This document shows, one piece after another, positions 56,762-62,354 of a stretch of 64,000 nt of DNA (its first letter is position 1; every line of letters begins with the position of its first letter). Source of the stretch: a virus. Location: IMG/VR virus record IMGVR_UViG_3300035703_000020, positions 85,879 to 149,878 of that record; one strand, 5' to 3'. A program made the translations under genes and the position numbers. The notes under the pieces are model-generated. The model made no database searches and was not told the DNA's origin. It was given only the letters and a program-made list of their open reading frames with translations.

Positions 56762-58052
56762 ATGGCTTCATCTGTTCTCTCCCGCCGCTCAACTAATTCC
56801 GGCTGGGAGTCTTTCTGCGAGTGGGTCACCTCGACGAACAACCGCCTCTACGTCGGTTGGTTCGGCACCCTGATGATCCCGACGTTGCTCGCCGCAACTA
56901 TTTGCTTCATCGTCGCCTTCATCGCAGCCCCACCGGTTGACATCGACGGAATCCGCGAGCCTGTTGCCGGCTCCCTCATGTACGGCAACAACATCATCTC
57001 CGGCGCCGTGGTACCGTCGAGCAATGCTATCGGCCTCCACTTCTACCCGATCTGGGAGGCCGCGTCCCTCGATGAATGGCTCTACAATGGCGGTCCTTAC
57101 CAGCTCGTCGTCTTCCACTTTCTCATCGGCGTTTTCTGCTATATGGGCCGGGAGTGGGAGCTTAGCTATCGCCTCGGCATGCGCCCTTGGATTTGTGTTG
57201 CTTACAGCGCTCCGGTAGCCGCCGCGACCGCCGTGTTCCTGGTCTATCCTTTCGGCCAGGGCAGCTTCAGCGACGGCATGCCCCTCGGCATCTCCGGCAC
57301 CTTCAACTACATGCTGGTGTTCCAGGCTGAGCACAACATCCTGATGCACCCCTTCCACATGCTCGGCGTCGCCGGCGTGTTCGGCGGCTCGCTCTTCAGC
57401 GCGATGCACGGCAGCCTCGTGACCAGCTCCCTGGTCCGCGAGACCACCGAGAACGAGTCCCAGAACTACGGCTACAAGTTCGGCCAGGAGGAGGAGACCT
57501 ACAACATCGTGGCCGCCCACGGTTACTTCGGTCGCCTGATCTTCCAGTACGCCAGCTTCAACAACAGCCGCAGCCTGCACTTCTTCCTGGCCGCGTGGCC
57601 CGTGATCGGCATCTGGTTCACCGCCCTGGGCGTGAGCACGATGGCGTTCAACCTCAACGGCTTCAACTTCAACCAGTCCATCGTGGACGCCCAAGGCAAG
57701 GTGATCAACACCTGGGCCGACGTGCTGAACCGCGCCGGTCTGGGCATGGAGGTGATGCACGAACGCAACGCTCGACTTGTGGGCGCCCTCGCCTGAAAGG
57801 GCGAGGTAAACTCCGGATGAATTGCTGGGAACCCGGCGGGGCAATCAGCAGCCAAGCCGCTCACGCTTGAGCGGAAGGTTCAGAGACTAGGCGGTGTGGA
57901 GAGCGCTCCACGTAAAACGCCACTAGCGTCCGGCACCTAAACCCCCTTGGGGCACGGTGAAGATATAGTCCAAGCGGGAGCACAACTTCCCCCTCGATCT
58001 CGCAGCCGCTGAGGCCACTCCTGTGGCTCTCAAGGCTCCAGCGATTGGTTGA
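56762..58052 (+). CDS. psbA: Photosystem II D1 protein, split by a group I intron
   Basis: Two exons: 56762-57772 (337 residues) and 57981-58052 (23 residues plus TGA); spliced length 360, normal for D1. ATG 56762 starts [12 protein letters not shown]; the frame is open to 56603 but D1 homology begins here. Conserved features include [20 protein letters not shown], the [12 protein letters not shown] quinone/iron region and [19 protein letters not shown]. Unspliced RNA would end in RLVGALA after MHERNA; exon 2 restores HNFPLDL and a C-terminal tail ending in the normal AIG. Maintains PSII repair during infection. The 5' half is less GC-rich than the 3' half. Confidence 0.96.
57773..57980 (+). 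ncRNA. Group I intron in psbA
   Basis: A 208-base intron. The upstream exon ends in T (57772) and the intron ends in G (57980), as group I introns require. A P2-like hairpin (57785-57806), the P-like AATTGCTGGGAA (57820-57831), the R-like GTTCAGAGACTA (57878-57889) and the S-like AAGATATAGTCC (57960-57971) are visible in order. No ORF inside. Known cyanophage psbA introns are of similar size. Confidence 0.88.
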
Positions 58053-61269: not shown

Positions 61270-61860
61270 TTGGAAATCGACAGCAAGCTTCTATTCCCGC
61301 GCCAGGTGGTGAGCGTGACCGATCGCAGTTACGCCACGGACGAGCTGCTGCGCTTCTGCTACGCGGCAAGGGAACGGGACAGCGCCGGGCGGCGTGTATC
61401 GAACCAGAACGGGGGGTGGCAGAGCGAGTCCATAGAGGCGGGAAACGAGGCGTACGAGGCGCTCAACTCCGCCATAGCGGAGCCGCTGCGCGCCGGCCTT
61501 GTCGGCGGCATGGGCGTCGACCCGGATTGGGCCTACGCGGTGTCCAACTTCTGGATCAACATCTCCGGGCCAGGGGCGTACAACGTGTCCCACATACACC
61601 CCAACTCGTCATTCTCCGGCGTGTTCTACGTGCAGGTGCCGGCGGACAGCGGCTGTCTGATCTTCGAGGACGACCAGCACCGGATGCTGGAGGAGGCCCG
61701 CCGCACTAAAGCGGCGACCGACGCCACCCTGCAGCACCAGACGTACTGGTTCTCGCCTGTCCCAGGCCAACTGCTGCTGTTCCCGGCAACCCTGCCGCAC
61801 CGTGTCGCCACCAACAGGTCCGGCGCGGACCGCGTGACGATAGCCTTCAACATGCTCTAA
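61270..61860 (+). CDS. 2OG-Fe(II) oxygenase-like protein (second)
   Basis: 196 residues from TTG 61270. The metal ligands sit in SHIHPNSSFSGVFYV (about 106-120) and FPATLPHRVATNRSG (about 171-185), with the 2OG-binding Arg in GADRVTIAFN. This is a different subtype from the protein at 60275. Cyanophages often carry several such proteins. TTG start and weak Shine-Dalgarno suggest low translation. Confidence 0.72.
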   Translation: MEIDSKLLFPRQVVSVTDRSYATDELLRFCYAARERDSAGRRVSNQNGGWQSESIEAGNEAYEALNSAIAEPLRAGLVGGMGVDPDWAYAVSNFWINISGPGAYNVSHIHPNSSFSGVFYVQVPADSGCLIFEDDQHRMLEEARRTKAATDATLQHQTYWFSPVPGQLLLFPATLPHRVATNRSGADRVTIAFNML

Positions 61861-61881
61861 AGCGCTCGCGGCGAAACAGAG

Positions 61882-61887
61882 TATAAT
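61882..61887 (+). promoter_or_regulatory. Candidate -10 box for leader RNA
   Basis: TATAAT, with expected transcription start near 61894, the first base before the CGTTC of the leader element. The match of start site and RNA motif supports both calls. Confidence 0.55.
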
Positions 61888-61894
61888 CTACGCA

Positions 61895-62035
61895 CGTTCA
61901 TTCGCACTTTCGGGCACAAGTTGCCCGATCCTGCGAACGGAAGTAAGCCGACGCGGAACGGAACGTTCATATCAGCAAAGCTGATAAACGCCATTTATCA
62001 ACAGGGCTGATACGCAAACGCCGACTGAAGGAACG
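61895..62035 (+). ncRNA. Candidate glutamine-riboswitch-type leader (glnA/downstream-peptide motif)
   Basis: A 204-base gene-free leader. It opens CGTTCATTCGC, which can pair with GCGAA and with distal GGAACG. The core GCGAACGGAAGTAAGCCG (61933-61950) and the distal GAAGGAACG (62027-62035) match the GGAAGUA...GAAGGAACG elements of the cyanobacterial glutamine-binding RNA motifs. A second CGTTC (61964-61968) and a TATCAGC/GCTGAT hairpin add a further module. It would control the small genes at 62065 and 62214 in response to nitrogen state. Confidence 0.55.
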
Positions 62036-62064
62036 CGGAATGTAACCACACATTTCGAGGACCG

Positions 62065-62217
62065 ATGTCAATCGCCACCTACCGCGGTGTCAAGTACGAC
62101 ACCGAGAAGCACCAGTCCACATTCCGCGACTGGTGGAACGAGATCCACTGCAACGCGACCCGCTGGTTCACCTACCGCGGCAAGCACTATCGCGCGTACG
62201 GGGAGTGCAAGCTGTGA
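62065..62217 (+). CDS. Small YRGVKYD-type protein (50 aa)
   Basis: 50 residues with two YRG strands: MSIATYRGVKYDTEKHQSTF and RWFTYRGKHYRAYG. This is the pattern of a small cyanobacterial and cyanophage protein family (DUF4278-like), often placed after leader RNAs of this kind. A GAGG sequence lies 6 bases upstream of the ATG. Confidence 0.65.
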   Translation: MSIATYRGVKYDTEKHQSTFRDWWNEIHCNATRWFTYRGKHYRAYGECKL

Positions 62218-62312
62218 AGCCCGCCTTCCTCACGTGGCTCGCCGCCGCCAAGCGCCGCGACGCCAGGATCGCCAAGCAGTACGAGCACAGCGTCCCCTCG
62301 GGCGTCGTGTAA
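62214..62312 (+). CDS. Very small basic protein (32 aa)
   Basis: 32 residues from GTG 62214, overlapping the previous stop; starts MKPAFLTWLAAAKRRDARIA. It ends just before the terminator, so it is part of the riboswitch-controlled transcript. Confidence 0.4.
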   Translation: MKPAFLTWLAAAKRRDARIAKQYEHSVPSGVV

Positions 62313-62316
62313 GATC

Positions 62317-62344
62317 AGGGGGCCCGCGGGCCCTCTTTCTTTTT
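62317..62344 (+). terminator. Rho-independent terminator
   Basis: GC-rich hairpin AGGGGGCCC / GGGCCCT (62317-62334) with a very short loop, followed by CTTTCTTTTT. It ends the leader-controlled transcript. Confidence 0.82.
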
Positions 62345-62354
62345 GGGCAAACCC

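Follow-up and report, generated by a model that had tools for sequence, protein, structure and literature searches.

Organization of the locus

A gene-free leader of 170 bases, located upstream of two small genes near the end of a virus record, raises the question of what RNA it encodes and of whether that RNA contains one ligand site or two. The DNA analysed (the window) is the final 64 kb of a record of 149,878 bases. A first-pass annotation, made from the sequence alone, had viewed the leader as a glutamine-sensing RNA of a phage. The phage is a T4-like cyanophage, and psbA/psbD of such phages are matched by the 57-64 kb end of the window. Between 61882 and 62336, the order is a TATAAT box, the leader, a 50-aa gene with the motif YRGVKYD, then a gene of 32 aa and, last, a hairpin resembling a terminator:

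61882-61887, + strand: TATAAT, −10 box, seven bases before CGTTC 61895
61933-61950, + strand: core element GCGAACGGAAGTAAGCCG
61964-61968, + strand: second CGTTC
61970-61976 and 62006-62012, + strand: TATCAGC/GCTGATA arms, with an alternative partner at 61980-61986
62027-62035, + strand: core element GAAGGAACG, that is, GAAG-GAACG, the second half of the glnA core
62065-62217, + strand: 50-aa DUF4278-like gene (YRGVKYD; PF14105, phrog_5049, 50 viral relatives)
62214-62312, + strand: basic small gene of 32 aa; it overlaps the preceding gene at the stop codon of the latter
62317-62336, + strand: intrinsic-terminator-like hairpin that closes the two-gene unit (one match, 0.8 expected by chance)

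The TATAAT box, both core elements, the leader, the second CGTTC and the TATCAGC hairpin all lie where the first-pass annotation had placed them, and the terminator that it proposed after the small genes has a counterpart in the hairpin at 62317-62336. With this TATAAT box, transcription would begin on or near the first aptamer base. A TATAAT-like hexamer is found 7-8 bases 5' of CGTTC in 58 of 125 related elements; a −35 box was not found in the window.

The plural in “small YRGVKYD genes” holds for the first gene only, as the second lacks the motif. The product of the first gene matches PF14105 (DUF4278) with 20.9 bits (E 4.9e-4), below the cut-off of 25.3, and phrog_5049 with E 4e-9, while the ORFs at 62214 and 62355 have no family match. 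Pairing of a DUF4278-type gene with an upstream glutamine riboswitch, as seen here, is known from the hosts, where type 1 glutamine riboswitches raise expression of the DUF4278 gene with glutamine (PMC6316151). In phage S-CREM1 (L235, 1026-1172), a single protein combines a YRG DUF4278-like start and a basic tail that resembles the separate second gene of related phages, a hint that the two small gene products act together.

Assignment of the leader to the Glutamine-I class

The Rfam model of glnA (RF01739, Glutamine-I) matched the window at 61893-62039 with 33.5 bits against a curated cut-off of 35, a shortfall of 1.5 bits (E 1.6e-5 for the 501 bases searched). The match spans the full model (1-53) and accommodates a 77-base insert within the P3 loop. 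A covariance model (R1) built from 16 compact elements, with the window held out, matched over its full length at 61895-62035, with 73.5 bits and E 1.8e-16 over the 64 kb. The downstream-peptide model (RF01704, Glutamine-II), the other class that had been proposed, gave no match in 61850-62350 up to E 10; over the same interval and threshold, Rfam yielded RF01739 plus one unrelated chance match. Of the two proposed identities, glnA is supported and the downstream-peptide motif is not.

Inspection of the core leads to the same class. The three-way junction P1/P2/P3 is present, with covariation in P2a and P3; J2/3 CGGAAGUA (61938-61945) and J3/1 GAAG (62027-62030) keep all canonical core bases, and the G23-C60 linchpin is found as G61940-C62036. 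On these comparative grounds the leader is a Glutamine-I-type riboswitch, from which we infer glutamine binding and the switching mechanism. The phage might sense nitrogen status through it, as the first-pass annotation proposed.

That short motifs came together by chance, or that the leader codes for a protein, might be suspected given that the Rfam score is below the curated cut-off and some parts are short. However, both E values (1.6e-5 and 1.8e-16) and repetition of the layout in loci retrieved by the protein alone indicate that the motif is not fortuitous; in addition, its pairs covary and P2b of the window is free of ORFs. The probability of such an origin is negligible, and we consider it already refuted by the comparative data.

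One interlocked aptamer or two in tandem

The structure that we propose has the following parts:

61895-61899, + strand: P1 5' strand CGTTC, pairing with 62031-62035 (R1 alignment)
61901-61937, + strand: P2a, a TTCGC/GCGAA stem capped by a long hairpin, with covariation among relatives at each of its four base pairs
61938-61945, + strand: J2/3 core CGGAAGTA; G61940 is the counterpart of linchpin residue G23
61946-61953, + strand: P3 5' strand AGCCGACG, pairing with 62019-62026
61956-61968, + strand: hairpin P1b (GAACG-GAA-CGTTC), part of the inner glnA-like junction, which is circularly permuted
61970-62012, + strand: P2b, TATCAGC/GCTGATA enclosing GATAAA-CGCCA-TTTATC; site of an ORF in 81 relatives
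62013-62018, + strand: inner J2/3' CGCAAA; C62015 can pair with G61961 as an inner linchpin equivalent
62019-62026, + strand: P3 3' strand CGCCGACT, covarying with 61946-61953
62027-62036, + strand: J3/1 GAAG, P1 3' strand GAACG and linchpin C62036, pairing with G61940

In this structure, long-range P3 and the linchpin join the two halves of the glnA core, CGGAAGUA at 61938-61945 and GAAG-GAACG at 62027-62035. The AGTA of J2/3 is presumably one half of a loop-E-like pair with GAA. We assign a probability of about 70% to the leader being a single Glutamine-I riboswitch in which another glnA-like three-way junction, circularly permuted, has taken the place of the P3 arm.

The obvious competitor is a pair of independent glutamine aptamers (61893-61969 and 61962-62039) that would give a steeper response, an effect already described for tandem glutamine riboswitches. 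At lower stringency RF01739 does yield two overlapping sub-threshold matches (28 and 25.5 bits), as it does in about ten relatives; tandem glnA RNAs are already known (PMC2864571), and 157 doublets have been catalogued (PMC9481103). Nearest-neighbour energies (nested −52.0, tandem −53.9, best −58.2 kcal/mol) slightly favour the tandem and do not favour the nested form; by themselves they do not select a state. Several observations, however, make two separate aptamers very unlikely:

(i). Neither core is complete. Unit 1 has CGGAAGUA and lacks GAAG, while unit 2 has GAAG but carries CGCAAA instead of GGAAGUA. No element with two complete cores was found among the loci collected, including the 50 found by protein alone.

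(ii). Pairs internal to each unit fail. Of 38 elements, 15 can form the internal P3 of unit 2, and the linchpin would be G-G in 109 elements for unit 1 and C-C in 117 for unit 2. No double change was seen in tandem-specific P3 pairs, and the tandem drawing equals the overall score of the nested one solely through P2a and P2b, which are common to both.

(iii). Pairs between the units covary. In the ORF-less set, the nested structure has a covariation of 0.304, compared with 0.089 after shuffling (none of 500 shuffles reached the former value) and with at most 0.075 when the structure is slid along the alignment. The P3 of the window has six standard pairs and two constant A-C mismatches. Its terminal pair, which our pattern scans left free, is paired in all 89 distinct elements (U-A, G-C, A-U or U-G), with a mutual information of 1.11 bits, as high as that of the P2 stems; a second variable position is G-C, A-U or G-U, and eight elements with a shorter P3 match GUCG with CGAC. 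On the tree of the ORF embedded in relatives, the terminal pair underwent eight state changes and pairing was kept every time; the supported independent contrasts agree (3/3), a number too small for a significant sign test.

(iv). Two loci (L009 and L011) have lost the inner P1b and kept the outer core and P3, a combination that only nesting allows.

(v). The outer linchpin is G-C in 131 and C-G in 13 of 144 elements, without a single mismatch. One pattern fixed the C after P1 and another the G in J2/3, so that only the opposite side was free each time; the isolates with C-G were found by BLAST. Because the scans preset some letters, invariance at those letters is not taken as evidence.

The tandem is therefore rejected in favour of the interlocked aptamer: the cores are incomplete, the unit-internal P3 and linchpin pairs fail, and those between the units covary. 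RNAalifold (alignment A3) paired the outer P1 and the inner hairpin unprompted, and did not predict P3 itself. The P1 strands are all invariant within phages and their covariation is uninformative, so that the choice of P1 partners rests on P3 and the linchpin. Altogether, comparison of sequences argues for the outer P1, P2a, the P3 between the halves, G61940-C62036, the inner hairpin and P2b.

Of the “tandem or extended form” suggested in the first-pass annotation, the second term is the one that survives, as the aptamer is wrapped round a second glnA-like junction. The additional module that it noticed is real, yet it is a junction opened the other way round and not a second complete aptamer. 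The arrangement probably originated by fusion of two tandem aptamers after complementary losses of one half each. The inner linchpin equivalent is C-G in most elements and G-C in one (L053), where the J2/3' base is G.

P2b holds the sole copy of its GATAAA...TTTATC palindrome within the window. Another palindrome, TTCGCTATT(C/T)GCAAATAGCGAA, serves as P2a or P2b in many elements (L236, L030 and L014 among them), and part of it matches sites annotated as tRNA-Ala in other cyanophages; it may be a mobile hairpin.

Variation of the linchpin in marine phages

In the crystal structure of a host aptamer, G23 of J2/3 contacts the side chain of the ligand, inserts at the end of P1 and pairs with C60 upon ligand binding (PMC11477058). 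The equivalent bases of the window, G61940 and C62036, flank the insert, one on each side. In a number of marine phages (L236, L239, L240, L242-L248, L250, L251 and L253), CGCAAGTA replaces CGGAAGTA, and the resulting G23 to C change in this ligand-stacking residue is compensated by a C to G change after P1. A specificity variant is possible, and the C-G state could reflect a single event in a marine phage clade.

One may then ask if the structure has been preserved and glutamine sensing lost, in such a way that the RNA serves as a fixed mRNA leader (for stability, processing or ribosome loading) or responds to another small molecule. The C found at the position of G23 in 13 elements and the altered inner junction would both fit. 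Nevertheless, linchpin complementarity survives the G23 to C change, the window retains the canonical bases of J2/3 and J3/1, and the downstream gene is the usual host target. Loss of sensing is thus rather improbable, and glutamine sensing is retained as the preferred reading.

Leader forms in phages and hosts

A search with the 50-aa protein alone retrieved 50 IMG/VR loci, most of them with the same layout 5' of the same small gene. RF01739 was detected in 45 of the 50 related records, above the cut-off in 25; one interlocked element (G002/L004) reached 42.6 bits. Further elements came from pattern scans and phage isolates. Three leader forms precede the same gene: a simple glnA junction (L006-L008, L043 and L051-L052), a compact interlocked form and an interlocked form with an ORF in P2b. 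The compact form, to which the window belongs, reads CGTTCA-P2a-CGGAAGTA-AGCCGACG-CG-GAACG-(3-4 bases)-CGTTCA-P2b-ACGCAAA-CGCCGACT-GAAGGAACG, lacks the ORF and precedes the DUF4278-like gene.

Isolates with the compact form are S-CREM1, S-PM2, Bellamy and P-TIM68; those with the ORF are P-RSM6, P-SSM7, P-HM1, P-SSM4, S-SSM7, P-SSM2, P-TIM40, DSL-LC02, DSL-LC03 and S-SRM01. The interlocked form is widespread in T4-like cyanophages (e.g., S-PM2, P-SSM2, P-HM1 and S-CREM1).

Among host-family genomes, 45 of 121 had an RF01739 match, with the simple form in those read by eye. The interlocked model, run with filters that lose weak and perhaps ORF-bearing matches, was applied to samples of 121 genus and 122 family genomes; its only match there was a 189-kb contig, which is phage. 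A first pattern scan of genome contigs gave no match; a second gave four contigs, all phage-like and at least one clearly phage. Since the host samples yielded only a phage contig, the interlocked form appears to be phage-specific within the sample.

Two contigs binned as Dehalococcoidia and Acidimicrobiia (L251 and L252) carry this cyanophage RNA and gene, and are likely mis-binned phage DNA. Some simple glnA elements of the host family (L264-L266 and L273) lie before the gene of another small protein (MSIITVHYLQRHRE...), which on visual inspection does not resemble DUF4278.

Genes embedded in the RNA of relatives

The P2b loop is enlarged in 81 loci to hold an ORF, about 50-65 codons long, that starts just past the 5' strand of P2b; the flanks of P2b still pair in 47-49 of 49. 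The median dN/dS, calculated without the RNA core codons, was 0.14 and 0.16 in two subfamilies; by this sequence measure (about 0.15), the ORF is under purifying selection. The stop codon is TGA in 79 loci and TAA in two, and in 78 of the 81 it occupies the identical place, within CTGAAGG of the aptamer core. The protein is phrog_504, of unknown function. Eight copies of phrog_504 occur in 11 isolate records, seven of them at the P2b site; the remaining one, in Bellamy, is at another place that lacks the RNA.

A second ORF (phrog_6471) fills P2a in P-HM1 (L244), L250 and L253, and ends in the TAA of the J2/3 core CGCAAGTAAG; P-HM1 and L250 thus have genes in both arms of the RNA. A literature search, with subscription journals mostly outside its reach, found no published description of an ORF placed in a riboswitch in this manner.

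In relatives with the P2b ORF, a ribosome that terminates at the stop codon in the core would unfold the aptamer, and translation of the ORF and ligand sensing should then disturb each other. A bolder and rather less likely reading is that embedded-gene translation and glutamine sensing gate each other through the shared stop codon; the inner permuted junction would then serve as a relay or as another sensor, and the window would represent the compact, gene-less form.

A candidate translational switch

One more feature lies between the aptamer and the first gene:

62036-62057, + strand: candidate expression platform hairpin CGGAATGT/ACATTTCG, adjoining the Shine-Dalgarno sequence GAGGA (62057-62061)

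The base pair C62036-G62057 of this hairpin competes with the linchpin and with the first Shine-Dalgarno base. Because the hairpin begins with the linchpin C, C62036 can be used either in the ligand-bound state or to close the hairpin, not for both. In many relatives, CTCTTTA just 3' of P1 pairs with TAAGGAG of the Shine-Dalgarno sequence; in some marine phages a Shine-Dalgarno hairpin is not evident.

We infer rather than demonstrate, and at present prefer, translational control by competition for the Shine-Dalgarno sequence, with the following direction. Without ligand, the interchangeable strands CGTTC, GAACG, CGTTC and GAACG could pair locally, and C62036 would close the hairpin that abuts or covers the Shine-Dalgarno sequence. 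Glutamine binding would form the outer junction, pull C62036 into the linchpin pair and loosen the hairpin. High glutamine would then increase translation of the DUF4278-like protein and its neighbour, the same direction as in the host gifB switch.

Strand exchange may take part in the switch, as only 2 kcal/mol separates nested from local P1 pairing in the nearest-neighbour model. In its strong version, local pairing (strands 1-2 and 3-4) would be the ligand-free state and nested pairing the bound one, and the exchange itself would be the switch. The four P1 strands are exactly interchangeable, and dual pairing would demand invariant strands. Simple single junctions before the same gene (L006-L008 and L051-L052) manage without it, however, and we hold this version only tentatively. 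It is compatible with the interlocked aptamer and would refine that explanation.

Comparison with known glutamine riboswitches

The phage leader adds a new variant to a riboswitch class already known. It shares with cyanobacterial Glutamine-I RNAs (RF01739) the P1/P2/P3 junction, the CGGAAGUA and GAAG core, the linchpin and the DUF4278-type gene downstream; it differs in that P3 is built from two distant halves, in the presence of a second glnA-like junction or an ORF inside the RNA, and in P1, which is CGTTC/GAACG in phages and CGTTG/CAACG in the sampled hosts (the inner end being C-G and G-C, respectively). Glutamine-II RNAs (RF01704) also precede small peptides, in picocyanobacteria, but the phage leader does not match them.

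Tandem glutamine riboswitches (PMC2864571, PMC9481103) likewise have two glnA-like units head to tail and are the probable ancestor of the interlocked form; in the phage, both units are incomplete and their halves interlock to make a single site. This form may also be present among the catalogued doublets. The phage RNA suggests that elements counted as “tandem” glutamine riboswitches are, at least in some cases, a single interlocked structure with one glutamine site, not two that cooperate. It would provide a natural example of complementary loss following aptamer duplication. The marine G23 to C elements supply natural variants of the ligand-stacking residue. Most of the surprise resides in the ORF-bearing relatives rather than in the compact copy of the window: well-studied cyanophages have small genes within a riboswitch whose ligand core holds their stop codons, so that a coupling of translation to metabolite sensing during infection becomes open to direct test.

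glnA RNAs have been annotated in cyanophages before, in S-CREM1 (PMC9964418) and elsewhere (PMC9602691), by class name only in the accessible portions of these reports; the S-CREM1 riboswitch, of the same Rfam class, is the compact interlocked form. The glnA RNA of methylophage Melnitz (PMC9004378), again given by class name only in the accessible text, belongs to the same Rfam class but is a simple single junction.

Two neighbouring features deserve mention. A group I intron (RF00028, 55.3 bits, 57763-57977, + strand) lies upstream of psbD (58834) and probably interrupts psbA. Directly upstream of the riboswitch is a gene for a 2OG-Fe(II) oxygenase (PF13759, 61270-61860, + strand); 2-oxoglutarate is the other signal of nitrogen status in cyanobacteria.
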